From positions 1 to 25,019 of IMG/VR virus record IMGVR_UViG_3300020417_001171: DNA of 25,019 nt. The stretch is one strand, 5' to 3'. A program made the position numbers and the translations under genes. Source of the DNA: a virus. Below the pieces are notes generated by a model, which saw only the letters and a program-made list of their open reading frames with translations, was not told the DNA's origin and did not search any database. Below are positions 1 through 23,499 of this stretch, piece after piece; the stretch's first letter is position 1; the number at the start of each line of letters is the position of its first letter.

Positions 1-3000
1 GTAATCGGGTTGGATGTGTCCGCTGCAACAGACGGAGTAATCCCAAACATAACAGGAACATCTACATCCTGATCGATATCTGCGCCTTCTGCGAGATCTG
101 CAAAGAAAGCTAGATAAGCTAAAGTCTGGTTGACTGTTTTCTTATCCATATCAGAAAGATCTTCTCTGATTTTTCGACCAGCCAGAGCGTCTTCAAAAGG
201 GTCTAAAACCGTGAACGACCTCATAAGCTGATCTGTGGTCATGTTCCCGTCCATGAGAGCGTCGCCCATGTCGGCATCAGGAACTGTGGGAGATATAGGG
301 ATAGAAAGAGGGGGCATCTCTACCGAACGACCTCTGGCATGATTACTTTTTAATTTTTCAAGTAACTTTCTGCCCTCCTCGTCCATATGGGTGCTAATCG
401 TGTGTCCCCAAAAATTGAGGTCATTTTCCCCCAACAAATCTTTAGCGAAGAACCCAACTAACTCTCTAGCTTTTACTGAACGCAGAGACCTGAAGCGGGG
501 GTCTAGCCCATATCCTTGTAAGGTAAAGTTTTCAGGGCCAGTCCCACGAGCAGAACTGGGGTTAATTCTGGCTATTCTCCTATCGCCCCGCTGCCCAAAA
601 TTAACCTTGCCTCTAAAGCCTGTGGTTCGTGCCCTTTGAGCAGCTTGTTCAGCAGCCCTAGAAGCAGCAGCTCGTTCAGCGGCATGGCCGTCTGCGTCCC
701 TGTCGCGGGGGACTTGTTGGACAAATCTTTTGCCCTCAACCATTTCGTAATCAGACGCCCGCATGATTGCATTAAACAAAGGAGCATCAGCAGAAGCTTG
801 TGTAAACAACTGGAAAGCAATCGCTTCTTCCTCTGCTTGATCGGCGGTTTCTTCAATCGTGTCTACATTCATGGCCCGCCGAAATGTCTCTAGGACTTCC
901 GCAGGGGCCTCGAAATTAAGATTCATGTTCTTATTGTCGCGCTCAAAATTAGCTTCAATCGCGATCATCTCATTCATAAGAGTATGAATGGCTGAATCTA
1001 AAGGACCGTGTGGCTCGCGGCTAAGGCGTCTATTCGCAATGAACCTGTTAATGGCCGCGCTGATATAGCGTTTAAGGATAGACAACAGTTTTGGGTTTTG
1101 TGACCAGAACTGCGTGTCTTCTTCGGTAGTGAAACCTTTCGTTGCTTTCTGCAACTGCATGCGGAGCTTTTCCTCAACCAAACGCTTTCTTTCTTCATAG
1201 GCCACAGCAGGGTCTTCTGAGCGAAGGTTTGCTTTCATTTCCGCTACCCGTGCGGCTCGTTTTTCAGAGTTTAAAATACCGCTGCCGTATTCCTCTGCAA
1301 TAGCATCAAAATCTTCATCACTTAATACTTCCATAATGCTGTTGATGTCAGCATCAGTCAGTGACCTGAAAGAAGCGATGTGCGCTAATTCTTCGTGAGC
1401 GATAATGTAAGCAATAGCTTTTTGAGCGAGAGGATCTAAACCATGTATAAGAGCAGCTAGTTGGTTGGGGTTAATAAAAATCGTAACGCCATCAACCCTA
1501 GCTGTTTGATCCATGTCCTCGTCAAACGCTAGTCTCTTATTTAGGGGGAGCCTTTCACTTATGTAATCAATAACCCCTTGCACTTCAGCCGCTACAACGG
1601 GATCACCTTCTGTCTCTGCAATTTCTTCTTTTAGCTGCGCCGTTTCCTCTTCCCGTAAAGCTTCTAGCCGCCTGCGTTCACCAAACGAGCCAATGGCAGT
1701 ATCTGCATCTGGTTCTTGGTTTGTTTCTAAAAAATTAGATAAAGTATTCCTTATATCAACGGCAAATACTTGTTCTTCAGTAAGAACTCCTTCTGGGCCT
1801 ACCGCATCAGCCGTTTCAGCAATACGGATAATCTCTGGCAGAGATTTTTCCCGTATAAGATTACCACGATCAGTATTTTCAAATTCTTCCGTTATAAAAA
1901 CAACGGCATCTTGAGGGATTGTTGTTGGTTCAGCCGCTTCAGCAGCTTCTGTTTGGCGCTCACGAATGCGTCCTGCGAAGCTCTCCCGCATTTTTGCACG
2001 TCGCGCATTAGCGTCCGCAGTCGCTTGAGCTGCGTCATACGCAACAGCAGGCAGGACTTTGTTGGTCACATTCCGGTGAGTGGTGCGCCCCAGATCAAGG
2101 ATGTCTTCCATAGCATCCGCAAACTGTTTTCCTTCAGTCGGAGTAACTTTGCGGAACAAGCCAGTGATCGACTCAATAATGCGGCGGAAGAATCCGCGTT
2201 GTCCTTGCGGTGTGTCCAGCTTCTTAATGTGATACTGGAACTCAGGAGACAGTAAGAAGCTCGCAACAAACTCGTCCAAGTTTACAAGGCCGTCTTCCAG
2301 AATAGCATTGGTCTCATCACTCGCAGCATACTGCTCCATCGCCATCGCATGCAGTCCTTGCAGCCGCTGGCGGGCGAGGCGTTGTTTTGAGGTAAGCTGG
2401 TTCTGTGGTTTGTTGAGAGTATCGGAAAGGAACGCATGGACATATTCTTCAAGAAGAACATTTTCAAGGCCGCGACCGTTACCGCTAGCTGTGTTAATAA
2501 ACACACGGTGTGATCCATCTGCTCCGCGAACATACTCACCTGCAACTTCCAAGTTGGCTTCCCCCATGCTGAAGCCCACGTTGCGAATAAATTCTTCGTC
2601 TTCCAGAAGCATCTCAGCCACCAACTTGTGGTTGGGGTTCTCACTGGACTCAGCAATTTTTTGCAGGGCTTCAACAACCGAATCAGGGTTGCCTGATTCC
2701 AAACCAAGAAACGCTATTTCAATTTCATTGTTAAGAGCTGCTTGTTCACGTTCAGCATCGGTAAGGTGTGAACGCGACAGACGGCGACGGATAGATTGAT
2801 CCATCGCTTTGATAAAGTTTACAGCTTGTATGCGAGAAGCTGGTTGCCCAAGAGATTCAGTAATTAGTTCTCTTGTCAGCTCAATCGTCTCTTCATCTTG
2901 GGACGGATCGCCCTCAAGTCTGTTGGCAATAGCATTAAGCTTAAGGCTTGTTCTTAAATCCAAGCCAGACCGGAACCGCCCTGATTCAAGAAGGCGTACA

Positions 3001-6000
3001 AACTCAGCCGCATCTGGGTTTGTAGGGTTAGTTGCCATCCACCCGCCAATGCTATTCATTAGCTGCTTAACCCCGCTTTCAGTTTCAAGCATAGACCTGA
3101 CATGAGTAGCCATCTCAGGGTCGGGGTCGGGGTAGATCGATTGAAACGCCAAGTCAGTCAGCGCATCTTTAAGTTCTGAGTCTTCGCGAATAGCGCCAAC
3201 AGCGTCGTCTAAAGTTCGTTTTACAACACCCGCGAATACTTGCGGCGGAAGTGGGTCAGATGTGTCTTGCCCGTCTACATAGATAGCTTGGTTCTCTACG
3301 TTCTGGAGACCCAACGCATCCATTGCGTCCTGATCGTGCATGCTGACAAACGCAGCATTTTTTTCATGCGTTCCTCTGGCTTCTTGTTGCGCTAAGTAGC
3401 GGTCAACATTTCTGCGGACAATCTTAGTAAAAGTAGGCATAGACCCACCTGCAAAATCGTCAGCGTTTAAAACGTGTTCTTCAACAAACTGAACAATAAC
3501 TTCAGTGTCGGTAGGGGTCTCAGACTTTTTAATAGAAGTAAGTGAGCGTAGCCTAGCAACTACTTCTTTTTTCGGGACATCCTCCTGCATACGAGACAAG
3601 AGTTCCCTGACTACTGCTTTTTTCTTATTGGGAGCAACCGTAACCTTATTGCCTATGCGGGCTGTAAATTTTTTCCGGCGGTCCAACAAAGCAGAACGAA
3701 GTTCAAAAAGTTCGGCTTTACGGCGGAACTCAGTAACAGCTCCTGTTATAGCGGCTTCTCTAAAAGCGATATCATCCAGCTTGTTGCCTTCATCGCCATA
3801 GAAATCCATGAACGAATCAAACTGCGCTGGATCAGCAGTATATGCGTCGAGGAATCGTTCAAGCTGCACATCGAGTTCAGCCATCGACATACCAACAGAC
3901 ACTAAATCGCTGCCATCGGAAGCTAGGCCGTGTGCCCCATCAGGCAGGATTTTATCATAATCAACAATAAAGGGGAGACTCGCCCACGCATTAGCCAGAT
4001 CATGGTTGGCTTCAACTGAGCCTACCTTGTCTACAGGCGCGACCATAGACTCTTTAAGTTGCCCGTCTAATGTCGGACGGAGGACATCTACAACCCAGCC
4101 ATCTCTTATCTTAAAAGCAGGGTTTATGTTTTCGGTTCCTTCGGGTGGCGCTGCTACAGGAATGTTGTGCGCCAACATTTCAGCTACAACAATAGGGTCG
4201 TTGTTAAACAACCCTCTTCCGTGTCTATCAACAACGCCTGTTATTTTTTTGCCTTCCTCTTTTTTCCCTGTCTTAGGATTGAAGAAAGTTCTCCTGCGGC
4301 TGCTCTTAAATCCTTTGCCGCCAGCAGGTTCTTCTACCTCAATGACCGGATAGCGGTTATAAACAACCTTGGCCATGAGATCCGATTTGTCTGAATACTC
4401 TGAAGACGCAGGTAAGCCAAACCTAGCGGCAGAGGAAACCCTTACAGGAACACCAAACCGAACAGCTAGTGTTGCATACTCCAACACTTCAGCCATTTCT
4501 GATTCGGTTATTTCTTCGCCAGCTTTAAACGCAGACAGATCAAAATGGCCTGCTTCAGACACATCAACCCCTTCAAGAGAAACGGAAGGACGGACTTCCG
4601 CGTAAGCGACGACAGATTTTTTTCTGTCTGGAAGAGGGTCTACAAGCGCAAGTCTTCCTGTTTCAGTAACAATAACCTGCATCTGGTCTAACCCCAGACG
4701 TTGTGCAACGACATTACGGCGAGGACTACCTAGCTTGAAAGTAAGCTCACTAAAATCTTTCTCCCTGAAAGGAGTCATCGGCAAAGAGATCTTTCCTTCG
4801 CCAGAAACGTCGATTGTTTCTTCAACAGCAACAAAGTCATTTATGCCGCGTTGGAGGCGCAGCATGCCTTCTTCTGTATTAAGGGCGTCTTCAAGTTGGA
4901 AAAGAAAAGTAGATGCTGATTCATCGTCGGCAAATGGGTCTCCTTCTGTAGAACCAAATGTAGCAGGTGGTTCAGTGCCCACTATAAGTTCAGGAGTAGG
5001 CCCAGCAGGAGCGGCGGGAGCATCAGGAGCAGGTCCAGTAGGGGTAGGTCGCGCTGTAGAAGACGGGGTAGCTACTTCAGCAACTTTTTCTGCTTTCTCT
5101 GCCCGAACAATGCGTTGCATCAACTGCGCCCGTGCAGTTATGTCTTCGACTCCTTCTTCTACTTCGGTAGGAAGACCCGCTTCTTCTGCTATCTTTTGAA
5201 GTTCTTCAACAGGCGGGGAGTCGGGAAATCTGCGGTTGATCTCCTCTTCAGTAACTTGAATTGTAGCAGCAGGAGTAACCTCGCCATACGATAGCACTCC
5301 GACTTCTTCAGGGGTAACGGCAGTTTCCAGTTCAAATGTCGCTTCGCGGTCTCCTACTGTTGGGACAGTGCGGCGTTTAGCTTCCCGCCCTGCGGGTTGG
5401 GCTTCGCGGATACGGGCTGCTGTTTTAGCTGTCTGCCTCACGGCTTCAGCAGTAAGTGGGCTGTCTGTTCCCTCTAGCCTTGAGGCAACGCCCTCGTAAA
5501 AATCTCTGCGTAGTCTGGCACCAGCCGCAGCTTCTCCAAAACGATTGGGCCGGAACTTAGCATTTATTCGTTGAACAGCAGGGACACCTGCACCCATAAC
5601 GCCACCTAGTGCGCCAGCATAAAGGGACTGTGACATCCTCTCCAACATTGGAGTGTTCTCTTCAAGAACGGCATCAACAATAAACCCATTAACAAACTCA
5701 TCGAGGGCTTCTTCTTGTGCTTCATCTACAACATTGCCAAGAAGAGACCGTGCCCCTGAAAACTTGTATTTTTTCAGTTGGGCTTTTAGTTGTAGAGCCA
5801 TTGCTTTAGCAACGGTCTGGTCACCAATTCCTTTTGTGTTAGCGACAGATTTTAAAACACCGGATAATTTTTTGAAGGACATCCCCTTTAGCAAGGCGTC
5901 TTCTACACCACCTCTGCCCAAGGCACCGAACCCAGCAGTGATAAATCCAGTAAAAGCACCAGCCATCATCGCGCCACCAAGTGCTCTGTCGTGGATCTCT

Positions 6001-8051
6001 GCGCGGCTTAAATCAGTGTTTTGCTGCAACTGATGGAAGAGTGTTCCATAAGTCGCTGACCCAGATCTTGTAGCCGCAGGAATAAAAGAAGCGGTAGCGA
6101 TGCCAAACTTTTTAGCAAACAAACCATTGTATCCTTTAATAGCGGCTTCAGCTCCTTTGAATGTTCCTTCTTTTGTCTCTTTAAGAGACAACTTAATTAA
6201 ATCTTCTTTGACTAATCTTTCGGCTGCTTCTTTTGTGGTTTCTTTTCCCGTTTTTTGGAAAACAGAACTAGTCAAAGCTTTGCCAAGACCTTTAGCAGTC
6301 AGCCTGCCGCCCTGTCGGGCTGCAAGATATGCCGCACCTCCTGCGCCACCCGCAGGGGCCGTAGCCACCGCGAGTACAGCAGTTGCACCTACATCGACCA
6401 AAAGAGGAGCAATAGTTTCGGCAATGTCCTGCCCAAAACCAAAGTCCTCACCAAAAAGTTTAGCTACTTCTCGTCTATCAGAATTACGACGAGCAGAATT
6501 TACCAAGGTATCTTGTGCCCATTCCGCCCCAAAAGCTGCCGGAATAGCTGCTGCTAGACCTGTAAAAGAATCCCACAAAGACCAAGCAACACCTTTGGTT
6601 CTTTCAGCAAACCCGTTGAAGTTTTTCTCGTCGGCTAAAAAGTCAGAAAGGATTTCATGGTTTGCCCGCCCATTGGCTCTCCCTTCTGTGAGTGCTTGGT
6701 TCCACTCATCTGCTTGACCAGAGCGGCCCAACAAGTCGCTCATGTCACTAAAGCTACTCTCCAAGAAGGCGACTCTGCTATCTGTTAAAGTTTGTTTTAG
6801 TTTGTCGTCGATGTCAGGGCGGGCAGCAAGCATGCGGTCAAACACATCTTTGTTCGCCATTGCCGCAGGGTGAACCACAGGGCCAAGGTAACCATATGTG
6901 CGGATGTTCTTGCCTACTTCATCGTCCCCATCGTGAAACTCAAACTTGTTGTTAGCGTTAGCGTCGTTAAGTATGGCTTGCTTGTAAGCAGTTTTAACTT
7001 CTTCAAGACTGAACGCATCGCTTTGTTTCACGCTCTCATTAAGGCGACGAGCAAGTTCTCTGGTTGCGTCGTTAAAGTCGATCCCCCCTGCGGTAGCAAT
7101 AGCGGCTCGTTCGTCTCGCGCTGCTTTTGTTCTTTCGTCTTGATCTCCCCCAGTAACCTTACCAATCAGCCAACCAGCAGCATCGCTTATGTCTTGCCCT
7201 GCGTCATCCAAAAACCATTCCCACGCATCAGCTTTGTCCCATTCAGAACGAGCAAGGCGAGACCCGTGACCTGATATCTGATGGCGAAAAGACTCGTCTT
7301 GTTCGGCCAATTCTAAAATCATGTCATGCGCTTCGCGCAGACGCTTGTATTTATACTTAGGTATCTCTGTGCCTTCTTGAATAGTCAGTTGATCCTGCGC
7401 GAGAAACGCATCTGACATCTGCACTCCACCAAGTTTGGAGTCTTTAAGAGCGGTAATAAGATCGCTTTTGGTTGCGCGGTCGCCTGCGATAAACTCAGGG
7501 TTGCCGTCATCTCCTTGGACAATCGCAAACGCAAGCTCTCCATTATTTACTGCTGTCCGTTTTACATCATCGAAACGGTTATCTACAATACTCTCTACTT
7601 GTGCCTTAGCTGCTTCCAGCTTATCAACAGTTTCAGGCATTACATCTGAATCTGTCTCAACAACTTTTTTAAGTGCCTTGTAGCGAGTGATCGTTTCCCA
7701 ATCTGAGTCAGTTTGAAAATCAATAGTAGATTGAATAAGGTCAACCTGCCTGTCGAAAGAGACCGAAGCGGGCGGCTTGTAAAACGACTCCAGCATATCT
7801 GGGTCGTCTTCAGCGACTAATCCTTCCCTGAGCAACGACTGTGAAAACCCAGACCTAATCTCCTGTTCAACCCCTACATTATATCGATCCGCCTTAAGGT
7901 ATTCTTCCCGAAGATAGTTAGAGTAATCTAGCCTGTTCTGGATCTGATCGTGGTTTAAAGGGGCTGTGTCAGACCACTCAGAATACTTCTGGACTTCTAG
8001 CGGGGCCGGAGGTTCCGGTGTCTTCCCCATAAGGATTTCAAAATCAGTCAT
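1..8051 (-). CDS. Giant virion-type / polyvalent protein, C-terminus beyond window
   Basis: One open frame of at least 2683 codons begins at the ATG at 8051 and leaves the window at base 1. I checked the frame at several points along its length and it stayed open. The N-terminus reads MTDFEILMGKTPEPPAPLEV. Glycine/alanine-rich hydrophobic stretches lie around residues 490-510, 545-580, 690-715 and 805-827, and a Pro/Ala-rich linker at about 995-1020. Two segments look like metallopeptidase helices: LLEEYVHAF (E1868, E1869, H1872), with a possible third ligand at E1927 in NLDEFVASF, and AHEELAHIA (H2219 to H2224). Family knowledge: huge phage proteins with such hydrophobic segments and zincin-like domains include ejection/internal-core proteins and 'polyvalent' proteins that enter the host with the DNA. 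Its place as last gene after terL and two virion-type genes fits an ejection protein. That role is inference. Confidence 0.85.
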   Translation of the reverse strand, partial: MTDFEILMGKTPEPPAPLEVQKYSEWSDTAPLNHDQIQNRLDYSNYLREEYLKADRYNVGVEQEIRSGFSQSLLREGLVAEDDPDMLESFYKPPASVSFDRQVDLIQSTIDFQTDSDWETITRYKALKKVVETDSDVMPETVDKLEAAKAQVESIVDNRFDDVKRTAVNNGELAFAIVQGDDGNPEFIAGDRATKSDLITALKDSKLGGVQMSDAFLAQDQLTIQEGTEIPKYKYKRLREAHDMILELAEQDESFRHQISGHGSRLARSEWDKADAWEWFLDDAGQDISDAAGWLIGKVTGGDQDERTKAARDERAAIATAGGIDFNDATRELARRLNESVKQSDAFSLEEVKTAYKQAILNDANANNKFEFHDGDDEVGKNIRTYGYLGPVVHPAAMANKDVFDRMLAARPDIDDKLKQTLTDSRVAFLESSFSDMSDLLGRSGQADEWNQALTEGRANGRANHEILSDFLADEKNFNGFAERTKGVAWSLWDSFTGLAAAIPAAFGAEWAQDTLVNSARRNSDRREVAKLFGEDFGFGQDIAETIAPLLVDVGATAVLAVATAPAGGAGGAAYLAARQGGRLTAKGLGKALTSSVFQKTGKETTKEAAERLVKEDLIKLSLKETKEGTFKGAEAAIKGYNGLFAKKFGIATASFIPAATRSGSATYGTLFHQLQQNTDLSRAEIHDRALGGAMMAGAFTGFITAGFGALGRGGVEDALLKGMSFKKLSGVLKSVANTKGIGDQTVAKAMALQLKAQLKKYKFSGARSLLGNVVDEAQEEALDEFVNGFIVDAVLEENTPMLERMSQSLYAGALGGVMGAGVPAVQRINAKFRPNRFGEAAAGARLRRDFYEGVASRLEGTDSPLTAEAVRQTAKTAARIREAQPAGREAKRRTVPTVGDREATFELETAVTPEEVGVLSYGEVTPAATIQVTEEEINRRFPDSPPVEELQKIAEEAGLPTEVEEGVEDITARAQLMQRIVRAEKAEKVAEVATPSSTARPTPTGPAPDAPAAPAGPTPELIVGTEPPATFGSTEGDPFADDESASTFLFQLEDALNTEEGMLRLQRGINDFVAVEETIDVSGEGKISLPMTPFREKDFSELTFKLGSPRRNVVAQRLGLDQMQVIVTETGRLALVDPLPDRKKSVVAYAEVRPSVSLEGVDVSEAGHFDLSAFKAGEEITESEMAEVLEYATLAVRFGVPVRVSSAARFGLPASSEYSDKSDLMAKVVYNRYPVIEVEEPAGGKGFKSSRRRTFFNPKTGKKEEGKKITGVVDRHGRGLFNNDPIVVAEMLAHNIPVAAPPEGTENINPAFKIRDGWVVDVLRPTLDGQLKESMVAPVDKVGSVEANHDLANAWASLPFIVDYDKILPDGAHGLASDGSDLVSVGMSMAELDVQLERFLDAYTADPAQFDSFMDFYGDEGNKLDDIAFREAAITGAVTEFRRKAELFELRSALLDRRKKFTARIGNKVTVAPNKKKAVVRELLSRMQEDVPKKEVVARLRSLTSIKKSETPTDTEVIVQFVEEHVLNADDFAGGSMPTFTKIVRRNVDRYLAQQEARGTHEKNAAFVSMHDQDAMDALGLQNVENQAIYVDGQDTSDPLPPQVFAGVVKRTLDDAVGAIREDSELKDALTDLAFQSIYPDPDPEMATHVRSMLETESGVKQLMNSIGGWMATNPTNPDAAEFVRLLESGRFRSGLDLRTSLKLNAIANRLEGDPSQDEETIELTRELITESLGQPASRIQAVNFIKAMDQSIRRRLSRSHLTDAEREQAALNNEIEIAFLGLESGNPDSVVEALQKIAESSENPNHKLVAEMLLEDEEFIRNVGFSMGEANLEVAGEYVRGADGSHRVFINTASGNGRGLENVLLEEYVHAFLSDTLNKPQNQLTSKQRLARQRLQGLHAMAMEQYAASDETNAILEDGLVNLDEFVASFLLSPEFQYHIKKLDTPQGQRGFFRRIIESITGLFRKVTPTEGKQFADAMEDILDLGRTTHRNVTNKVLPAVAYDAAQATADANARRAKMRESFAGRIRERQTEAAEAAEPTTIPQDAVVFITEEFENTDRGNLIREKSLPEIIRIAETADAVGPEGVLTEEQVFAVDIRNTLSNFLETNQEPDADTAIGSFGERRRLEALREEETAQLKEEIAETEGDPVVAAEVQGVIDYISERLPLNKRLAFDEDMDQTARVDGVTIFINPNQLAALIHGLDPLAQKAIAYIIAHEELAHIASFRSLTDADINSIMEVLSDEDFDAIAEEYGSGILNSEKRAARVAEMKANLRSEDPAVAYEERKRLVEEKLRMQLQKATKGFTTEEDTQFWSQNPKLLSILKRYISAAINRFIANRRLSREPHGPLDSAIHTLMNEMIAIEANFERDNKNMNLNFEAPAEVLETFRRAMNVDTIEETADQAEEEAIAFQLFTQASADAPLFNAIMRASDYEMVEGKRFVQQVPRDRDADGHAAERAAASRAAEQAAQRARTTGFRGKVNFGQRGDRRIARINPSSARGTGPENFTLQGYGLDPRFRSLRSVKARELVGFFAKDLLGENDLNFWGHTISTHMDEEGRKLLEKLKSNHARGRSVEMPPLSIPISPTVPDADMGDALMDGNMTTDQLMRSFTVLDPFEDALAGRKIREDLSDMDKKTVNQTLAYLAFFADLAEGADIDQDVDVPVMFGITPSVAADTSNPI

Positions 8052-8085: not shown

Positions 8086-9117
8086 TTAGTCGAAATGTGA
8101 AGCAATCGTCGGTGCGCCAGTGGGTGTTTTACCAGCAACTCCAGTGCCTTCGTTAAGGCGAGTAACTGACTGGTTTATTGTGCGGAGGGCCGCACGGTAG
8201 ACATCTTTTGTAGAAGAACTAGCCACAAACTCAGGATCAAGATTGGGGTTGAGGCTCAAGATAATCTCCTCTAGCTGTTCGCGTTCTTCTGGAGAAAACT
8301 CAAGTTTGCCTGTAGTTTGAGGTTCTTGTACTACCCCGTCTTTGAGGGATTTTGCGACAAAGTCATCATCAACAACCCCCATTTTCAAAAGCGTGGCTTC
8401 GTGTTGAAGAAGCCTTTTGCGTTGATTGTCGGTTCTAGTATCAATTATAGACCGTTCAAGTTCCTGTTGCTTTTGCTTTGCTGCTGTTTCAGAACGCCCT
8501 TTATAGACCGAAGCAAGGTCATCGTAGGCTTGTTCTTGGCTAGTAATCTCAGCTCCTCCTGCGGAAGACGGGTCAGTAATGCGCTTCCTAATAGCATCCT
8601 GTGCTCCTACCTGACCAAGAGTATGTAGGATTCCAGCTTCGCGTTGTTCTTTGCGGCGTAAATCTTGCTCTTCTTTATTGGCTCTAGCGGCATTCGCTTG
8701 TGCCGTTTGTGCCGCAGACGTAAACATGTTTTGCATTGCGGGGCTGTGAGGCAGTGCCCCAGCCATGCTCATCTGCAATCGAGCAATGTCGCTGGTCTGT
8801 TGGTAGGCGTCTTTAGAATCATCGTTGAGAATAGCGTCCAAGTTCTCCATAAGAGCAGGCATCTGCTCCATCGCTTCAATTTCTCCTTTAGCTTTTCGCC
8901 GTGTCGCAGCTAGGGCTTCCTGAGATCTTTGATAGGCCAAATCCTGCTGATGCATATTTAGCATATCGTTAGCCATCTTAATCGATTGCTCCTGCACCGG
9001 AGCAATCGATTGCATGTAGTTTGCATGGAGTTGGCGGAACTCAGACTGACGCATACCGCCCACAGGGAAGAACTGTGAGCGTAGGGGAGCGATGTCGTTA
9101 TTAAAATTAAGAGCCAT
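8086..9117 (-). CDS. Virion-type protein, helical, function unknown (343 aa)
   Basis: A 343-residue frame starting MALNFNNDIAPL. Most of it is charged, Gln/Ala-rich and probably helical, notably residues 30-110 and 140-250, with no clear catalytic motif, signal peptide or membrane segment. It begins 2 nt after the stop of the 307-aa gene and ends 34 nt before the giant gene, so the three are probably cotranscribed. I do not recognise the family. Its position just before a giant protein recalls T7 gp15 before gp16 (internal core proteins), but this is an argument from order only. It could equally be a tail or neck component. A perfect 13-bp inverted repeat lies inside its coding sequence. No convincing Shine-Dalgarno sequence precedes the ATG. 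Confidence 0.85.
   Translation of the reverse strand: MALNFNNDIAPLRSQFFPVGGMRQSEFRQLHANYMQSIAPVQEQSIKMANDMLNMHQQDLAYQRSQEALAATRRKAKGEIEAMEQMPALMENLDAILNDDSKDAYQQTSDIARLQMSMAGALPHSPAMQNMFTSAAQTAQANAARANKEEQDLRRKEQREAGILHTLGQVGAQDAIRKRITDPSSAGGAEITSQEQAYDDLASVYKGRSETAAKQKQQELERSIIDTRTDNQRKRLLQHEATLLKMGVVDDDFVAKSLKDGVVQEPQTTGKLEFSPEEREQLEEIILSLNPNLDPEFVASSSTKDVYRAALRTINQSVTRLNEGTGVAGKTPTGAPTIASHFD
8980..9011. repeat. Perfect 13-bp inverted repeat with 6-nt loop, inside a CDS
   Basis: The arm AATCGATTGCTCC is followed by the loop TGCACC and the exact reverse complement GGAGCAATCGATT. It lies within the N-terminal coding part of the 343-aa virion-type gene (encoding ...QSIAPVQEQSIK...). No T-tract follows on either strand, so it is not a classical intrinsic terminator. 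Confidence 0.85.
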
Positions 9118-9119
9118 GT

Positions 9120-10043
9120 TTAGTATGAAGTGCGTTTCTCCATCGTCCGCAGCCCGCCTGTTTGTAGCCCGCCTGTTTGTAGCCCGCCTGTTTGTAGCCC
9201 CGCTGCTTTTTCTCTGTCGGCTAACAACTTGTTAGCTAAATTTATCCTTCTCAGTTGCATGTCTTCCATCTGACTTTGTGCCCCCGCTAATTGTTCCTGT
9301 TGCGCTGCAACACGACCACGATGGGCTTCACTTACAATGTTGGGTTGGTTGACTCTCTCCTGTAAAGATTGTCCCATCAACTTCTGAGCCTCCCCCCACG
9401 CGCCAAATCTCCTAGCCCGCCTAGCAGCACTTGCCAACTTGCCAGCGCGGGTACCAATTTCGCGGGGAGCTTGTCTAAGTGCACTGCCCGAACCAAGTGG
9501 TTGAGCTGGTTGGGCGGCACCCCCACCACTCTGTCTAGCAACAGCAGCATCAAAAGCTCCCTGAGAAGCAAAGTCTTGTCTGCGAAGATTGCTTGTAGCT
9601 AATGGGCTTTCAGCTACTAGGGTTCCTGAAGGACTAATCCCTTCTTTCTTCAAGAACGCATCAAACCCTTTGTCGTCAAAGGCTGAATCAGTGACCCCGC
9701 GATCCCTTGCTTTTTTAAGAAGATCAGCAGTAAGTTTCCCTTCTTTAGCCAAGCCACGTACTTTGCCAGCAATATCCTTCCCCCTCTGAACTTCTTCTTC
9801 GGAGCGCATAGAAGGGTTCCACGAAAGTGGGCCAGTAGTTGTTGCTGCTGTTTCAGGTTGATTCTGTCCTACAGGAGCAGTGGCTACAGGGGCAGAAGGT
9901 GTTTTTGCTGACTTAAGGAGAGAAGCTTTATCTCCTAAGACAGGAGTAACTTGCCCCCCTGAAATATCAACTGTCTTAACCCCAGCGAGGGGCTGCATAT
10001 ACGGATCTTCTTCTTCTTTAGATTTTATTCCTCTCAGAGCCAT
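9120..10043 (-). CDS. Virion-type protein with C-terminal pentapeptide repeat (307 aa)
   Basis: A 307-residue frame starting MALRGIKSKEEEDPYMQPL. The sequence is low in complexity: a Pro/Thr/Ala-rich stretch around residues 30-80, a Gly/Gln/Ala-rich stretch around 170-195, a basic region near 200-215 (SAARRARRFGAWGEA) and a helical Gln-rich region at about 230-280. It ends with three GLQTG-type repeats followed by a diverged unit and TMEKRTSY. The start lies 2 nt past the stop of the upstream small basic protein and the end 2 nt before the 343-aa gene. I recognise no family. Its position suggests a virion or ejection component (compare T7 gp14), but that is inference. The DNA repeat behind the C-terminal repeats is listed separately. 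Confidence 0.8.
   Translation of the reverse strand: MALRGIKSKEEEDPYMQPLAGVKTVDISGGQVTPVLGDKASLLKSAKTPSAPVATAPVGQNQPETAATTTGPLSWNPSMRSEEEVQRGKDIAGKVRGLAKEGKLTADLLKKARDRGVTDSAFDDKGFDAFLKKEGISPSGTLVAESPLATSNLRRQDFASQGAFDAAVARQSGGGAAQPAQPLGSGSALRQAPREIGTRAGKLASAARRARRFGAWGEAQKLMGQSLQERVNQPNIVSEAHRGRVAAQQEQLAGAQSQMEDMQLRRINLANKLLADREKAAGLQTGGLQTGGLQTGGLRTMEKRTSY
9151..9195. repeat. 15-bp tandem repeat, three perfect copies
   Basis: The unit AGCCCGCCTGTTTGT occurs three times head to tail without mismatch, followed by a partial AGCCC. It keeps the reading frame of the overlapping gene and encodes the LQTGG repeats on the minus strand. In-frame 15-bp units can expand or contract without breaking the gene. 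Confidence 0.95.
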
Positions 10044-10045
10044 GT

Positions 10046-10339
10046 CTACCAGAGATGTTTGCAGGCCCAGTAACGGGCTGTGGTTTTATCTTTTGCGGTC
10101 TTACAGTTGTGTCTTGCTCGAAAATTTGCGCGGCGTTTTGGATTTTTATGTTTCCTAAAATCGCTGTAATCACGATGCCCGTACGACACTTTTTTGATCT
10201 TATCGCCTTGTTTGCCAAGGACTACGAATTTTTTTTTAGATCCTTTAGGTGCTCTTTTCGGCTTGTTGAAGCCAGCATAAGACTCCCCCATGTATTGGAT
10301 TCTACCAGAAGGAAGACGCTTAAACCTTTTTGCTGCCAC
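10046..10339 (-). CDS. Small basic protein with FRARHNC...YWACK signature
   Basis: With a GTG start at 10339 this is 97 aa, beginning MAAKRFKRLPSGRIQYMGES and very rich in Lys and Arg. The C-terminal half carries FRARHNC and, about 15 residues later, YWACKHLW, giving a Cys/His/Trp signature that I recall from small proteins in many marine phages. Their function is unknown to me. The frame stays open upstream to a TTG at 10453 (135 aa) preceded by AGAGGA, but that start lies inside a long hairpin and the added N-terminal part is hydrophobic and unlike the core, so I prefer the GTG. The gene lies between terL and the 307-aa virion-type gene (2-nt gap). It may bind DNA, judging only from charge. 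Confidence 0.75.
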   Translation of the reverse strand: MAAKRFKRLPSGRIQYMGESYAGFNKPKRAPKGSKKKFVVLGKQGDKIKKVSYGHRDYSDFRKHKNPKRRANFRARHNCKTAKDKTTARYWACKHLW

Positions 10340-10449
10340 AACCCATAAGTTACCGTTATTAAAGCTTACTGTCAATTCCAGCAAAAGAGCTAACGGAGGC
10401 GTCAAGCTATCTGAGAAATGGCGCGATTTCGCAAATTGCAAAATCGACT

Positions 10450-10526
10450 TCAAAAAGTCCTCTCTAATACATGTGGGCTTATTGGACTCTCCAATGTGCC
10501 CATACGTTTTACAGAAGACTTTTTGA
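10450..10526. repeat. 77-nt imperfect palindrome abutting the terL stop codon
   Basis: The sequence folds back on itself around base 10488. Three co-centred arms are visible: ATTGGA/TCCAAT (10481-10486, 10490-10495), TGGGC/GCCCA (10474-10478, 10498-10502) and CAAAAAGTC/GACTTTTTG (10451-10459, 10517-10525), with short matches between them. I count 30 Watson-Crick pairs of 37 possible, plus two that wobble in RNA of the plus strand. The outer arms pair an A-tract with a T-tract, as bidirectional terminators do. An RNase III processing hairpin like those between T7 genes is an equally good guess. It also contains a possible TTG start of the next gene. Confidence 0.8.
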
Positions 10527-12314
10527 CTACGAGATCAGATTCGTCTCTGGGTTTTCTAGAGATTTACCTAGTGATTTAATTGTAACCCGCTTCCTGAACC
10601 CCTCACCCTGATCCTCTTTCGGTGGGTCGATAGCCACTAAACCTAGCCTCTGGCGGGCGCAATCCAGTGCAAGGAATGCAGCGTCTGCCAAGTCAGGAGA
10701 CCTGCCGAACCGTGCCTTGAACTCTGGTTTGGACTCAATCTTCACCTTAAGGGAACCAGTTTTAATCATGTCGTAGTTCCTAGCGCACATCTCCTGAGCG
10801 AGATCAGAGCTGATGCCGTAGACCTGTTTCGTCCTCATAAGTTCTTTTCCCACAAACCATAACTCAGAAACACGGTTAGTGTAGAGTTCTTCACCTGTGA
10901 GCTGGCTGTTCATGGAAACACGCTTGTCAGATGCTCTGCCCCCAAATGTCACCCGCATGAAATTAGGCGACCACTCTCCTGCAAGGACATCACAGAATGG
11001 TGCCCCCGCTCCAGTGGAGTCCACCGCTACGTTCTCAGGGCTGACCCCTTTACGTTTACAGTGGTCTACAATCTGGTGAACAATCTGGTAAGTGCGAGGC
11101 ACTGCCTTGTTAGTGGCATCGTCGTTGAGGTGGATCGCGTCAGTGAACTGACAAACGTATTGCCCGTTCTTGGCGTATCCTACTTCAGCAATCGAAAGGA
11201 TCGTCCGGTCACCACCATTCGTAAATGCGGGGTCGATCCCCGCGACCTTTGTCGGCTTATCCGCCCACTCAATTTTCCCCATTGCCCCGCTCTTGGTGAG
11301 TTCAGATTCGCCGTAGATGCCTGTCGTCTCGTCGCTATCAAAAAAGATAGCTCTGACCATCCGCATGTAGCCTCTTGATTCCGGCCCCAGTAATATTCGG
11401 TCCTCTTCTAGTTTCGCCGCTGTTGGTAGCCAAGGGTATTTAGTCTCACCTAGAAGGACGTTAGGACTGCGCTCCCCATCTAAACGAATATACTTACCGC
11501 CCCACTTAGTGTCCCATTCGTCTGCGGTATGGATGTCTACAGAATCCCAACCGTCTTCTGGTTCTGACCAGACCCCAAACGCATCGAAGCGTGAGTTCGG
11601 GTTAGACATCCCGATCATCTGGAAGAACGGGTTCTTCGACAGGTTAGTCAGGCCAGCATTGACTATAGCTTCTGACAGTTCTGCCAGCTCGTCCCCGATT
11701 AAAATCACGCGCTTCTGTTTCAAGCCGATAAATTTACCGACTGCGTCCTTCGTTTTTTGTTTCTCAGCAGCAATAAGTGACAAGCCAGCCCGCTCAATAA
11801 GAGTCTCCTTTTCATCTACATAGGCAGCGTTGCCGATTGAATCCCGAATTTTGATCGGCGCTCCATCAATCACGGACAGCAAAGACATGACCGATCCCCA
11901 GATTCGCTTACGTGCTTCACGTAGTGTAGTCGAGGTCATCAAGACCAGCGTGTCTCGTGGTTGTGACAGCCAGTTGATGATCCCCCAAGCTGCCATAGTA
12001 TGGGATTTACCAGAAGAAGCTGACCCGCCGATAGACAGGTATTTGTTTTTTAACGCCGAACGAATCATCAATTCTGCCCAAGGATGACGAATCATCATGG
12101 GTTCGGGCAGGTCATCATGGTTCCATAGCTCGTCGCACAGCCGCCAGAAGTAATACTCCTTTGCGATTATTTTCGGATGATGCGCGAACCCGTATAATAA
12201 CGAAGTCACTAAACTTGTCGGGGGAATCAACAACCCACCGACATCCATTTTTTTCGTCTTAGGATCGATTCGTGGCTCAAGAACGCGCTTGCGTTTATTT
12301 GGGTCGGGCGGCAT
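10527..12314 (-). CDS. terL: Terminase large subunit (TerL)
   Basis: ATP-driven DNA-packaging motor and nuclease. With the ATG at 12314 the protein has 595 aa, starting MPPDPNKRKRVLEPRIDPKT. The N-terminal ATPase has a Walker A-type loop GGSASSGKS (about residues 96-104) and a Walker B strand VILIGDE (about 203-209). The C-terminal RNase H-fold nuclease shows GIDPAFTNGG (D361), AVDSTGAG (D432) and SPDLADAAFLALD (D541/D544), so all expected acidic residues appear present. The frame runs on to a TTG at 12386, but that would overlap the divergent terS gene and add an atypical segment, so I use the ATG. No clear Shine-Dalgarno sequence precedes it. The gene heads the leftward block, and a long palindrome follows its stop at once. 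Confidence 0.93.
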   Translation of the reverse strand: MPPDPNKRKRVLEPRIDPKTKKMDVGGLLIPPTSLVTSLLYGFAHHPKIIAKEYYFWRLCDELWNHDDLPEPMMIRHPWAELMIRSALKNKYLSIGGSASSGKSHTMAAWGIINWLSQPRDTLVLMTSTTLREARKRIWGSVMSLLSVIDGAPIKIRDSIGNAAYVDEKETLIERAGLSLIAAEKQKTKDAVGKFIGLKQKRVILIGDELAELSEAIVNAGLTNLSKNPFFQMIGMSNPNSRFDAFGVWSEPEDGWDSVDIHTADEWDTKWGGKYIRLDGERSPNVLLGETKYPWLPTAAKLEEDRILLGPESRGYMRMVRAIFFDSDETTGIYGESELTKSGAMGKIEWADKPTKVAGIDPAFTNGGDRTILSIAEVGYAKNGQYVCQFTDAIHLNDDATNKAVPRTYQIVHQIVDHCKRKGVSPENVAVDSTGAGAPFCDVLAGEWSPNFMRVTFGGRASDKRVSMNSQLTGEELYTNRVSELWFVGKELMRTKQVYGISSDLAQEMCARNYDMIKTGSLKVKIESKPEFKARFGRSPDLADAAFLALDCARQRLGLVAIDPPKEDQGEGFRKRVTIKSLGKSLENPETNLIS

Positions 12315-12347
12315 GATTAAATCAGGTTCAACTTTACTGTTAAAAAC
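12315..12347. promoter_or_regulatory. 33-bp divergent gap between terL and terS starts
   Basis: The start codons of the leftward terL and the rightward HTH gene are only 33 bp apart, in an AT-rich stretch. Both blocks seem to start here, so promoter elements must lie in this gap or inside the two 5' coding ends. I see no strong sigma-70 pair and no Shine-Dalgarno sequence for either gene. Confidence 0.3.
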
Positions 12348-12953
12348 ATGGGAAGCAAGAGCGATGGGAACAACGAGATAGTTCAAGAAGCATTAAAACT
12401 TAATGCGGAAGGGATGACTAATGCTGCTATCGCCAGAAGATTGGGTGTTCATCAAGGGACTGTCCGCAGATGGTTCCGCAAACTGGGGCTTCCCCCAAAG
12501 AAAGCGGGTTTTAAACTACCTGACAAAGATGTCGATAAAGACAAACTGAAGGAAGACCTTGAAGTGCATCTGGACGAGATGACACGAGAAGCCGCTACCG
12601 CAGCTAAACTGGCAGCGTCCACAGAAGAGGATAAGATCCTCGCAGAGATTGCCGAATCACAGAACTCCCCTGCCGATAAATACCAACACTACGTCGCGGC
12701 AGCGGGGATTAAACTTTTACGCGACAGTATGGTGTCCATCAAAGGGCCGAAGACTGTGCGCGAAATGTCAGAGTTAGATCAACTTATCAGGCGCAACCTT
12801 GGCTTGAACGCCAAGACAGGTGGCGGCGGGAGCCGCATGCAGATAGACATTTCTATACTCAATAACTCGAAAGCTGATAAAGGTGATGGCTCGCTGGACA
12901 AGATGAAGGGTAAAACCATAATCGACGTGGACAGCGATGGAAATGTGGAATGA
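12348..12953 (+). CDS. terS: Helix-turn-helix protein, probable terminase small subunit
   Basis: A 201-aa protein. Residues 10-47 form a helix-turn-helix: IVQEALKLNAEGMTNAAIAR followed by RLGVHQGTVRRWFRKLGL. A long acidic-basic helical region follows (about 65-155). The tail has a glycine run and RMQIDISILNN (about 157-175). Small terminases bind the packaging site through an N-terminal HTH and oligomerise through a helical core, and this layout and size fit. The gene sits head to head with terL rather than just before it, which is unusual for a terminase pair, so a DNA-binding regulator is the alternative. It is first in the rightward block and its last 17 nt overlap the next gene. The first ATG is chosen because a later ATG (about residue 23) would cut helix 1. 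Confidence 0.7.
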   Translation: MGSKSDGNNEIVQEALKLNAEGMTNAAIARRLGVHQGTVRRWFRKLGLPPKKAGFKLPDKDVDKDKLKEDLEVHLDEMTREAATAAKLAASTEEDKILAEIAESQNSPADKYQHYVAAAGIKLLRDSMVSIKGPKTVREMSELDQLIRRNLGLNAKTGGGGSRMQIDISILNNSKADKGDGSLDKMKGKTIIDVDSDGNVE

Positions 12954-14540: not shown

Positions 14541-14819
14541 GTGGTAAAGCCCTCCTTCATGCCACGCTACACTAAGCCAGAACACGTCGAACAGTATTTC
14601 GAGCAACACTCGATACCTGTTCCAGAAAAGCCTTCGTTTTATTGGAAGGCGATACAGCCAGCCTTGGAGCTGGGCTTTATTTTAGGCCAATCGGACAATG
14701 GCGATATTGTCGTGATTACACCGCACAGGCATCGAAAAGTCTACCGTGGTTTTAAAGCTACGAAATACCATCTGGGCATGGTGTTGATGCATGCAATGTT
14801 GAGTAACCCAATGCACTAA
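14541..14819 (+). CDS. Small protein of unknown function (92 aa)
   Basis: A 92-aa frame from a GTG at 14541, or 86 aa from the ATG at 14559 (MPRYTKPEHVEQYFEQHSIP). The purine-rich AAGAGAGG at 14531-14538 is rather close to the GTG and far from the ATG, so the start is uncertain. The sequence is rich in aromatic and His residues, with a likely beta pair (FILGQSDNGDIVVITPHRHR, then KVYRGFKATKYHLG). I see no recognised motif. Its stop overlaps the helicase start by 1 nt (TAATG), suggesting coupling. Confidence 0.6.
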   Translation: MVKPSFMPRYTKPEHVEQYFEQHSIPVPEKPSFYWKAIQPALELGFILGQSDNGDIVVITPHRHRKVYRGFKATKYHLGMVLMHAMLSNPMH

Positions 14820-16129
14820 TGAAAACACCCTACCCAAGGCAACAGGATCTCATTGACTTCTTCGTCCGGCAACAAGAAGCCGGATACAACACCTGCGACA
14901 CATCACATACTGGCGTAGGCAAAACTCTCATAGCCTGCATGATGGCTAAGAAACTTAACCGCCCCGTAGCGGTTCTGTGTCCCAAGGCAGTTATACATGC
15001 GTGGGGGATGGAGATGGACGAATGCGAAGTAGACGAGATAGAGTTCATCCACAACTTTGAAAAGGTCCGCACTGGGAAAACTCTCCACATGGACAAGAGT
15101 GGTAAGAAGATAATGAAATGGCGGTTGCCTGAAGACACTCTGGTCTTGGTAGACGAAATCCATAAATGCAAAGGGCCATACACCCAGAACGCGCAGCTTG
15201 TGATCTCGCTGATCCAACAAGGATACTCAGTGCATGGGATGTCAGCTACAGCAGCCGAAGATCCCACCGAGATGAGGGCGTTGGGATACATGCTGGGGCT
15301 GCACTCTTTAAACAAAGCAGAAAACGATTTGAGTAACTGGTACAGTTGGATGTTACGCAACGGGTGCCAGCAGAATGAATGGGGCAAATGGGAGCTTGTT
15401 AAACGGTCATGCCTGCCTGCGATAAGGGCGCAGATGTATGGGAAAAACGTAAAGCGTCTTACAGTCGAAGACTTCCCAGACTCGTTCAAAGAAAACAGAG
15501 TAATCACAGAACCTGTGGAGTTTAGTAAGGCTTCCAAGATACGTTCCGCTTACAAGAAAGCGGGCATCACACCGGACATCGTGGAGCAATATATCGAGAA
15601 TGGGACGGTGGAGGACAGCGACTATATGCTGGTAAACATACTCCGTGCTCGCCAATTAGCGGAGTCATTTAAGATAACTGATCTGGTAGACATGGCGGAG
15701 GATCTTGTGTTGGAGGGTAAGAGCGTAGTTATATTCGTAAACTTCTCCGACACGGTGCAGACACTCTGTCAGAATCTAGGATGCGATAGAGTAGAGGGGG
15801 GTCAGTCAGCAGAACAAAGGCAGGAGGCTATCGACAAATTCCAACGTGATGAGACACACGTCCTTGTGGTGAACATTGCAGCAGGAGGGACGGGCATATC
15901 TCTTCACGACACTAATGGGAAAAGACAAAGAGTATCGTTGATCTGCCCATCGTTCTCAGCTAAGAACCACCTTCAGACGTTGGGCCGCATCCACCGCAAC
16001 GGGGCGAAGAGCGATGCTATTCAGAAGATCCTTGTAGCCCACGACTCTATCGAAGAAGCCGTAATGAAATCAATTAACAATAAACTCAAAAATATAGATA
16101 CACTACACAATGAGCCAACCAGATCATAG
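14819..16129 (+). CDS. SNF2-like superfamily 2 helicase / translocase
   Basis: A 436-aa protein with a full SF2 motif set: motif I SHTGVGKT (29-36), motif II VDEIH (111-115), motif III MSATA (141-145), and C-terminal motifs GGTGISL (357-363) and QTLGRIHRNG (387-396). The arginine pair R391/R394 is at the expected finger positions, and HRNGAKS resembles the SNF2 'HRxGQ' region. Such short SNF2-like proteins recur in phage modules with a Cas4-like nuclease, an ssDNA-binding protein, PolA and a primase-helicase, as here. It likely moves along or remodels DNA during replication or recombination. It overlaps its neighbours by 1 nt and 20 nt. Confidence 0.9.
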   Translation: MKTPYPRQQDLIDFFVRQQEAGYNTCDTSHTGVGKTLIACMMAKKLNRPVAVLCPKAVIHAWGMEMDECEVDEIEFIHNFEKVRTGKTLHMDKSGKKIMKWRLPEDTLVLVDEIHKCKGPYTQNAQLVISLIQQGYSVHGMSATAAEDPTEMRALGYMLGLHSLNKAENDLSNWYSWMLRNGCQQNEWGKWELVKRSCLPAIRAQMYGKNVKRLTVEDFPDSFKENRVITEPVEFSKASKIRSAYKKAGITPDIVEQYIENGTVEDSDYMLVNILRARQLAESFKITDLVDMAEDLVLEGKSVVIFVNFSDTVQTLCQNLGCDRVEGGQSAEQRQEAIDKFQRDETHVLVVNIAAGGTGISLHDTNGKRQRVSLICPSFSAKNHLQTLGRIHRNGAKSDAIQKILVAHDSIEEAVMKSINNKLKNIDTLHNEPTRS

Positions 16130-18201: not shown

Positions 18202-19962
18202 ATGGAATCCTATGCCTTGGACTTTGAGTCCTATTACGATAAGAGCTGCTCAATCAAGCGGCTAGGCCCACTGGGGTATTTTTCCCACCCTGACTTTGAT
18301 GCCTACATGGTGTCAGTTGTGGGCGACAACGGTTACGAATTTGTAGGTCACCCTAAAGATTTTGAATGGGGCCTACTTGAAGGAAACCGTGTTCTGTCCC
18401 ATAATGCATCCTTCGACGAAACGCTCTATTTCTTTGGAGTAGAGAAAGGATGGTGGCCGAAAGTTGACTTTGCAGAGTGGCATTGCACTGCTGACATGGC
18501 CGCTGCATGTGGTCTTCCGAGGTCGTTGAAAAACGCTACGGCAGAAGCTTTCGATTTAGATATCTCTAAGACTACTCGCGACAACATGGCTGCGAAGAGG
18601 TGGGAGAACATGCCGGAAGAGTTCCAAAAAGAAGTTAGTGACTACGCCTTAAAGGACTCCGTGTTGTGTTTAGAACTCTGGCAGAAATATCAAGAGCAAT
18701 GGCCGGATCGCGAAAAGCTTATCAGTCTAACCAACCGTAGGATTATCCAGCGGGGGTTGCCAATGGACGCAGCTTTATTAAAAGAGCAACTGGAGACAAT
18801 TAACCAGAGACTCTTTGAAGCGGAGTCGGCTATTCCGTGGGCTGGAGAAAAACCACTACTTAGTCGCGCAGCTTTCGATGAAGAATGCCACAATCATGGG
18901 CTGGAGCCACCTAAATCCTTAGCCCAGAATGATGTTGATGCTCAGGAATGGTTAAGGCAGTTTGGGCATAAGTATAAGTGGGTTGAAGCCGTTACAAACT
19001 GGAGGCGTATCAACGCACTCAAGAAAAAGCTGGAGGCATTTGACTACGCTACCCTGCCAGATGGTCGTTACTATGGCGGATTGATGTATTGGGGGGGACA
19101 CACTGGCCGTTTCTCTGGGAGCGGCGGTAACCTTAACCTACAGAACTTACCTCGCGATGAGATGTTCGGGGTCAACCTGCGCCACATGATCTGCGCCCCA
19201 AAAGGGAAGAAGCTCGTGGTGGCTGATCTGTCACAAATTGAGGTGCGGACATTGTGCTGGCTCGCAGGGGACCGAGATACTTTAGATGAGATAGAGAACA
19301 CCGAAGATATCTACGAAGCGTTTGCGATCAGGATGGGCTTGTGGGCGAAGGGCAGAGGGTCTTTGAAAGAGAAGGCTCCTAAACTACGGCACAAGGTAAA
19401 GGCTATTGTCTTAGGGTGCGGGTATGGTGCAGGAGCTACTAAATTTTCTGAGATGTATAGCATGCCAATAGATGAGGCGAAGGGTGCTGTAGATCTTTAC
19501 AGAGACAGGCTTTATGCCATCCCGAAACTCTGGCGAAGGATTAACAACAAATTGAGGCAATGTTACAACACAAGAGTTCCTTACGATGAACCTCTTCCGT
19601 CAGGACGCACCATTAACTATGGGAGGATAAAACTGGTTAAGCAAAATGACCAGATAAGTCATCAGGCGATTGTCAGCCGTAATGGAAAGAGGCTACCCAT
19701 GAAACTCTGGGGAGGGGTTGTCGCGGAAAATTTATCGCAAGGACTTGCACGAGACATCTTTTCAGACATGATCGTCAGGCTGGAAGAAGATGGAATCAAC
19801 TTGATCTTTCACGTCCACGACGAGGTCGTAATTGAATGTGATGAAAATGAAGCAGAATCAATTCTGGAGCGAACAATCGAGATCATGTCAACGCCGCCGA
19901 CATGGATACCCGATATCCCCTTGGCGGCAGAAGGACAAATGCTTACCCGTTACCAGAAATGA
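18202..19962 (+). CDS. polA: DNA polymerase family A with 3'-5' exonuclease
   Basis: A 586-aa replicative polymerase. The exonuclease domain has ALDFES (D7, E9), SHNASFDE (D72) and DYALKDS (Y148, D152), the complete DEDDy set. The polymerase domain has motif A VVADLSQIEVR (D342), motif B running from R396 through K400 and L404 to Y408 G409, and motif C FHVHDEVVIE (H539, D540, E541). There is no 5'-3' exonuclease domain, as in T7 polymerase. The position equivalent to E. coli Phe762 is Leu404 (TTA at 19411-19413). The start cannot be later, because D7 would be lost. No Shine-Dalgarno sequence is seen, and the gene lies just behind a strong terminator. It overlaps the primase-helicase by 4 nt. 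Confidence 0.97.
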   Translation: MESYALDFESYYDKSCSIKRLGPLGYFSHPDFDAYMVSVVGDNGYEFVGHPKDFEWGLLEGNRVLSHNASFDETLYFFGVEKGWWPKVDFAEWHCTADMAAACGLPRSLKNATAEAFDLDISKTTRDNMAAKRWENMPEEFQKEVSDYALKDSVLCLELWQKYQEQWPDREKLISLTNRRIIQRGLPMDAALLKEQLETINQRLFEAESAIPWAGEKPLLSRAAFDEECHNHGLEPPKSLAQNDVDAQEWLRQFGHKYKWVEAVTNWRRINALKKKLEAFDYATLPDGRYYGGLMYWGGHTGRFSGSGGNLNLQNLPRDEMFGVNLRHMICAPKGKKLVVADLSQIEVRTLCWLAGDRDTLDEIENTEDIYEAFAIRMGLWAKGRGSLKEKAPKLRHKVKAIVLGCGYGAGATKFSEMYSMPIDEAKGAVDLYRDRLYAIPKLWRRINNKLRQCYNTRVPYDEPLPSGRTINYGRIKLVKQNDQISHQAIVSRNGKRLPMKLWGGVVAENLSQGLARDIFSDMIVRLEEDGINLIFHVHDEVVIECDENEAESILERTIEIMSTPPTWIPDIPLAAEGQMLTRYQK

Positions 19963-23027: not shown

Positions 23028-23207
23028 TTAATCTCTGTAACCGCCCCCCGCTTTTTTGTAGCGAGAAGCTAATAACTGGGCTTTCCGTGCTGACCATTGT
23101 CCTGCTTTGCCCCCTTTTGTTCCACGTTTGATCTCGTTAAACAAACGGCGTCGCATCGTCGGCTTGGTGTAATTGCCCGCTTCGTTGACTCGTGATTTTT
23201 TATTCAC
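23028..23207 (-). CDS. Tiny basic DUF6321-like protein (59 aa)
   Basis: A 59-aa frame from a GTG at 23207, reading (M)NKKSRVNEAGNYTKPTMRR, RLFNEIKRGTKGGKAGQWSA, RKAQLLASRYKKAGGGYRD. The VNEAGNYTKPxMR ... KGGKxGQWSARKAQLLA ... GGGY pattern is highly characteristic of small proteins common in marine phages, which I associate with DUF6321 from memory. Function is unknown. The GTG overlaps the end of the SprT-like gene by 8 nt, and the gene ends 4 nt before the next start. Confidence 0.8.
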   Translation of the reverse strand: MNKKSRVNEAGNYTKPTMRRRLFNEIKRGTKGGKAGQWSARKAQLLASRYKKAGGGYRD

Positions 23208-23499
23208 TGTTAAATCGTTTAGTAAACCTTTCCCAAGCTGGGAAATAGATCTCGTCCATACACCTCACTATACTTTCCTCTTCGTAAGATTCTGAGTAAC
23301 TGAGACCAGAGATGGCGAGGCTAGCGTGAAGCATCTCATGCCGCACGGTGTCGTGGAGTTCCTTACCCTTGAGGGTCTTATCGATGGTAATAAGTTTTCG
23401 TCTATGGGAATACATCCCGTAGCAGTCATCATCTCCCAGATCTCCCAGCCGGATTCGGACCCGAACACCGCCGATAGTTATGCTCTTGGGGAGGCTCAT
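23200..23499 (-). CDS. SprT-like zinc metalloprotein (99 aa)
   Basis: A 99-aa protein with the zincin motif VRHEMLHASLA (H54, E55, H58), followed by SYSESYEEESIVRCMDEIY. An acidic residue there (about E74-E76) could be the third zinc ligand. The N-terminal half looks beta-rich (ITIGGVRVRIRLG, KLITIDKTL). Small SprT-like or ImmA-like proteins of this kind are common in phages and their targets are unknown. It overlaps the amidase stop by 4 nt and the 59-aa gene by 8 nt. Confidence 0.75.
   Translation of the reverse strand: MSLPKSITIGGVRVRIRLGDLGDDDCYGMYSHRRKLITIDKTLKGKELHDTVRHEMLHASLAISGLSYSESYEEESIVRCMDEIYFPAWERFTKRFNSE

Follow-up and report, generated by a model that had tools for sequence, protein, structure and literature searches.

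A giant gene of uncultured marine phages probably encodes a polyvalent ejection protein with a constant chassis and a swappable cargo slot

We analysed a 25,019-base IMG/VR contig from an uncultured marine phage (the window), one end of which is occupied by a giant gene. Comparison of its product with homologues from other, largely marine, uncultured phages indicates that the gene probably encodes a giant polyvalent ejection protein, built as a constant chassis with a swappable slot and delivered together with the phage DNA. The best reading is that it founds a new family of a known kind of polyvalent and ejection proteins, and that the chassis-plus-slot design is unusually clear in this family. 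The finding ties a large group of uncultured marine phages, represented by hundreds of contigs, to the themes of polyvalent proteins and ejectosomes.

A real gene that runs off the record

A first-pass annotation made from the DNA alone had described a minus-strand frame open for at least 8 kb and a protein of more than 2680 residues, and both statements hold. The frame starts with an ATG at 8051, runs to position 3 through 2,683 codons with no stop, and leaves the record before its 3' end. With the window's base composition, a stop-free frame of this length has a chance probability of about 10^-64. The frame differs by 10 synonymous changes and 1 non-synonymous change over 346 common codons from G001, a 34,888-nt relative that overlaps the window at 98-99% identity, and by 48 synonymous and 36 non-synonymous changes over 1,503 codons from L284; codon third positions are the most changed. 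Because so long a stop-free run is so improbable and the differences are mainly synonymous, the frame is a real gene. From residue 593 onwards, the Tara Red Sea MAG contig PBPU01000114.1 (L201/L284) encodes the same protein (96.5-97.6% identity). It reads on to a stop after 4,620 residues, so the whole protein comprises about 5,212 residues, of which the window covers about half.

Using the window's terminase, we found 212 related stretches in IMG/VR. The giant gene was present in 16 of the 16 longer records examined, and the records of the longest relatives extend to 55-63 kb. A tblastn search of 50,697 records of cultured phages gave no match for the giant, portal or capsid protein and one weak match for the terminase. 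Neither the window protein nor its 97% relative had a significant match in Pfam, PHROG or NCBIfam. Close homologues on L201, L200 and L202 lie in MAGs named Acidimicrobiaceae and Porticoccaceae; these are probably mis-binned phage contigs, so the MAG names say nothing on the host.

A constant module plan

The alignments took in 12 and then 91 homologues, in which the common order is N-terminal module, linker, middle module, zincin 1, zincin 2, cargo slot and C-terminal module. The window contains the following parts of this plan.

3..8051, minus strand: giant open reading frame, 2,683 codons present, 3' end cut by the end of the record
5400..8051, minus strand: N-terminal module, residues 1-884, mostly helical in the structural model, with four conserved Gly/Ala-rich hydrophobic segments
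4482..5399, minus strand: linker, residues 885-1190, Pro- and Glu-enriched, with a Pro/Ala stretch at residues 999-1021 (nt 4989-5057)
2895..4481, minus strand: middle module, residues 1191-1719, optional in the family
2085..2846, minus strand: zincin-like domain 1, residues 1736-1989, with EEYVH at 1868-1872 and LDEFVASFLLSPEFQ at 1925-1939
897..1589, minus strand: zincin-like domain 2, residues 2155-2385, with EELAH at 2220-2224 and Glu 2294 as candidate third ligand
3..896, minus strand: start of the variable cargo slot, residues 2386-2683

The N-terminal module (~880 aa) opens nearly every homologue whose start is covered, and the C-terminal module (~1,000 aa) comes last in every homologue whose end is covered. 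Zincin 2 is present in all 91, and zincin 1 was not found in 17. Full-length homologues mostly measure 3,400-4,300 residues and range from 2,284 to about 5,212, a variation that comes largely from optional and inserted segments; the shortest (L186 and L171) consist of little beyond the N-terminal module, zincin 2 and the C-terminal module. In the linker between zincins 1 and 2, L284 has ~65 extra residues with an EGVLTEE repeat at their flanks (window residues 2083-2095), which points to a recent indel change.

The Pro/Ala linker that the first reading had placed near residue 1000 is the stretch at 999-1021. Likewise, the hydrophobic stretches it had listed near residues 490-510, 545-580, 690-715 and 805-827 coincide with maxima of the hydropathy averaged over 57 N-terminal modules (residues 488-506, 547-565, 690-708 and 808-826). 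These segments are only moderately hydrophobic, with at most 22 of the 57 members reaching 1.6 over 19 residues at any site, and the window protein has 3 strong hydrophobic segments against a mean of 6.3 in its own shuffles. The protein may form part of a trans-envelope channel and act early in the host, as the first reading proposed, but the channel stays tentative: the four segments are conserved yet mostly under membrane-helix strength.

The structure models of the two end modules are moderately confident (pLDDT 76-77; 76 for the C-terminal one). For the N-terminal module there is no sequence match, and its model had no fold match below 1e-3 in searches of PDB folds and BFVD. A Gly/Ala and EExxEE pattern looks alike by eye in this module and in Cellulophaga gp123, a resemblance that hhalign did not support. 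The homologies to experimentally characterised proteins described below thus concern the C-terminal module and zincin 1 rather than the family-specific N-terminal half.

Cargo is exchanged between near-identical chassis

Cargo is swapped between near-identical chassis: in the pairs compared, the C-terminal modules are 95-99% identical and the slots differ. L122 and L105 have 95% identical C-termini and slots of 727 and 1,079 aa that are 5% alignable, the first with a weak ART-PolyVal match (under the curated cut-off) and the second with L5 gp82-like and DUF7178 domains. At the same C-terminal identity, L121 carries ART-PolyVal in its slot and L102 DUF7178; L181 and L183, 98% identical at the C-terminus, have slots of 350 and 99 aa. 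The cargo of L155 and L185 is 47% identical. In the slot of L284 a cargo unit occurs twice, both copies matching the one present in L101, and the C-terminal module follows.

Across 45 slot regions, DUF7178 occurs in 11, ART-PolyVal (an ADP-ribosyltransferase; best E 2.7e-18) in 7 and GNAT acetyltransferase models in 2, with one match each for methyltransferase and L5 gp82. PHROG matches of the slot regions include a ParB C-terminal domain, a DprA-like protein and a virion RNA polymerase (phrog_2206, matched by two cargo regions of other members); DnaJ is carried by one insert outside the slot. Different members of one family thus carry unrelated activities (ART-PolyVal, GNAT, methyltransferase, DUF7178, ParB-like, DnaJ). 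The cargo part of the window protein matches nothing in Pfam, and in the protein as a whole only the two zincin-like domains can be recognised. Alignment alone separates constant delivery parts from variable cargo in this family, and the slot is a direct source of candidate early-acting phage effectors.

This exchange bears on an alternative that we consider unlikely, namely a DarB-like antirestriction protein that is packaged and injected and only shields incoming DNA from restriction. A protein called DarB-like, gp69 (4,515 aa) of the Bcep22-like phage JC1, is of similar size and is found in CsCl-purified virions (PMC9144972). Against this alternative, the window protein has no DdrB-ParB, helicase or methylase domain, and the cargo differs between near-identical chassis and includes unrelated enzymes.

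The C-terminal module and zincin 1 resemble virion proteins

For the proposed ejection protein, one link to virions comes from the C-terminal module. Its profile matches gp123 of Cellulophaga phage phi18:3 (E 1.6e-40, hhalign probability 99.9), which is annotated as a structural protein from experimental MS/MS. It also matches ORF31 of Pseudoalteromonas phage vB_Pun_Y3 (E 5e-71), in which an ART-PolyVal domain precedes the module. At the level of fold, the C-terminal model matches viral proteins named large polyvalent protein associated domain and the S-CBP2 internal virion protein; the curated LPD Pfam models have no match in these proteins, and the resemblance is to LPD-named proteins by fold. 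vB_Pun_Y3 also encodes a 3,421-aa polyvalent protein (L118, 2903-13168, plus strand) with DdrB-ParB, LPD1, LPD5, ART-PolyVal and methyltransferase domains, and this protein and the adjoining gene for the C-terminal module are possibly a split form. In the PDB the C-terminal profile also picked up influenza haemagglutinin HA2 (E 1e-3), a match with no other support that was set aside as chance helical or coiled-coil similarity. Compared with the C-terminal domain of the N4 virion RNA polymerase (vRNAP), the module showed no homology.

Zincin 1 matches the tetrameric ejection protein gp48 of phage PhiM1 (residues 381-504, E 1.2e-8) and the internal virion protein 9sfn (E 1.7e-7), both matches spanning the HExxH region and the downstream Glu region, as well as the C-terminal region of N4 vRNAP (hhalign E 7e-7). 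PhiM1 gp48 is a solved ejection protein, and the N- and C-terminal modules do not match such a protein. The label 'zincin' for domain 1 is motif-based, since residues 268-528 of gp48 were called endolysin/exotransglycosidase-like by its authors (PMC11440229). The motifs of zincins 1 and 2 do not align, so we do not claim the two as duplicates.

The metallopeptidase-like segments expected near residues 1870 and 2220 were located at 1868-1873 (EEYVHA) and 2220-2225 (EELAHI), but as EExxH rather than HExxH. Peptidase activity is accordingly uncertain, both window motifs lacking the first His. Relatives have HExxH at both sites: among 50 members, the first ligand of zincin 1 is His 23 times, Glu 25 times and Arg twice, and among 66 members that of zincin 2 is Glu in 54 cases and His in 10, with the general-base Glu and the second His nearly invariant at both sites. 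That two metal-binding residues replace one another in an otherwise conserved site suggests that the metal site still works and has not decayed; seen at the first zinc ligand of both sites, this exchange would be an unusual metallopeptidase variant. Polyvalent proteins are marked by a zincin-like metallopeptidase domain with HExxH and a downstream Glu; the family here has two domains with [H/E]ExxH and a downstream Glu, both EExxH in the window and HExxH in some relatives.

Zincin-like domains and effector-like cargo would also suit a protein made during infection that stays out of the virion, a polyprotein or toxin processed by its own peptidase domains. That reading appears improbable given a C-terminal homologue detected in virions by MS/MS, a zincin 1 homologue that forms part of a solved ejectosome, and the linkage of the gene to the terminase gene run.

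Conserved neighbours and the terminase

The genes around the giant gene in the window are as follows.

8086..9117, minus strand: 343-aa gene directly upstream of the giant gene, candidate partner ejection protein
9120..10043, minus strand: 307-aa gene, candidate partner ejection protein
10046..10453, minus strand: 135-aa protein, DUF5754 / phrog_7595
10527..12386, minus strand: terminase large subunit, phrog_2, four genes upstream of the giant gene on the same strand
14819-16129, plus strand: helicase-like replication gene, assigned by eye
18202-19962, plus strand: family A DNA polymerase, phrog_17, E 3e-84
19902-22136, plus strand: primase-like replication gene, phrog_1829

At 131 homologous loci, the 343-aa gene adjoins the giant gene in 120 and the 307-aa gene is recognisable close to it in 93. 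The order, with two candidate partners upstream, resembles T7 14-15-16 and N4 52-51-50. As is usual for polyvalent proteins, which belong to portal-terminase phages and are linked to structural genes, the giant gene stands beside a terminase and conserved neighbours. Past the window's other end, G001 adds portal-like, scaffold-like and capsid-like genes, names that rest on size, order and sequence and carry no family match. The 307-aa protein has a short tandem LQTGG repeat near its C-terminus. Elsewhere in the window, two minus-strand genes were assigned by eye: one for an N-acetylmuramoyl-L-alanine amidase-like protein (23496-24047), the other for a small protein whose RHEMLHA motif is metallopeptidase-like (23200-23499). 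The 97% relative has two further genes downstream of its giant gene, on the plus strand of L283: one encodes an AAA-type ATPase, MoxR-like by eye (1056-2180), and the other a 517-aa protein (3216-4769) that contains HEALHALLSHA as well as a long Asp/Thr/Gly repeat and by eye resembles a VWA peptidase.

A tail tape-measure or fibre protein, large through the setting of tail length or through receptor domains, might be suspected from the size, the helical hydrophobic N-terminus and weak fold matches to tape-measure proteins (E >= 0.05). We regard this as very unlikely: homology of the whole protein to either family, which the first-pass annotation had named as grounds for abandoning its proposal, was sought and no significant match was found; family members measure between 2,284 and about 5,212 residues, mostly because of optional and inserted segments; and the giant gene is placed after the terminase with two conserved small genes. 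An N4-type vRNAP with a diverged catalytic core shares the layout of a ~900-aa N-terminal domain, low-complexity linker, middle and C-terminal domain (PMC12633501), the zincin 1 match and the phrog_2206 match of two cargo regions in other members, but can hardly be maintained when the C-terminal modules are not homologous, neither the window protein nor L284 has a polymerase match, and no module besides zincin 1 has a usable match to N4 gp50.

A proposed route from capsid to host

The polyvalent ejection protein is accordingly the reading that we carry forward, and for it we envisage the following sequence of events, in which packaging, ejection, processing, effector action and any channel are inferred. 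The constant chassis (the helical module at the N-terminus, zincin 2 and the C-terminal module) would be packed in the capsid with the two smaller partners, pass through portal and tail at infection and enter the host along with the DNA. Effector domains swapped between phages (ADP-ribosyltransferase, acetyltransferase-like, DUF7178, L5 gp82-like, DnaJ, ParB-like and others) would sit in the slot that separates zincin 2 from the C-terminal module, and in some cases in the linker region. The chassis modules may help translocation and the cargo would act in the host; the zincin-like domains would probably cleave the chain, free the cargo or assist in breaching the envelope.

The earlier proposal of an ejected multi-domain effector is thus the best-supported one, through the gp123 and gp48 homologies, the polyvalent-type cargo of relatives and the two candidate partner genes, although the peptidase motifs of the window protein are altered. 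More tentatively, and with considerable doubt, the protein may be a dedicated protein-delivery chassis with a fixed slot for interchangeable effectors, from which the His/Glu-exchangeable EExxH site of both zincins frees the cargo. If true, it would in principle be a natural phage counterpart of a modular secretion carrier.

Comparison with known systems

The polyvalent proteins (Iyer et al. 2017, PMC5512222) are likewise large multidomain phage proteins with zincin-like metallopeptidase domains; they combine ART-PolyVal with unrelated enzymes in one chain, as the window protein's relatives do, and share the genomic link to terminase and structural genes. Unlike them, the 91 homologues here have two constant end modules and one main slot, no curated LPD Pfam match is found, and both window zincins are EExxH.

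The virion structural proteins gp123 of Cellulophaga phage phi18:3 and gp129 of phi19:3 end in the homologous C-terminal module and are encoded by the final structural gene of their run, but measure 1,871-1,935 aa and have no recognisable N-terminal module, zincins or cargo. ORF31 of vB_Pun_Y3 (Poorviridae) has the module with ART-PolyVal before it and adjoins the 3,421-aa polyvalent protein; it differs in being a separate 1,027-aa gene, and its neighbour's DdrB-ParB, LPD1 and LPD5 are absent from the giant protein.

PhiM1 gp48 (PDB 8vb2), the counterpart of T7 gp16, has a zincin-1-like domain at 381-504 with HExxH and a third-ligand region, but is 1,263 aa long and without a cargo slot. As in T7 14-15-16, the giant gene follows two adjacent genes, which here encode candidate internal proteins. 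N4 vRNAP gp50, with gp51 and gp52, is also a giant beads-on-a-string protein with a metallopeptidase-like region, encoded last after two partner ejection proteins; it differs in its polymerase core and in its non-homologous C-terminal domain. Finally, the DarB-like gp69 of the Bcep22-like phage JC1, which we liken to the window protein by size and description, is a giant podovirus protein proven in virions.
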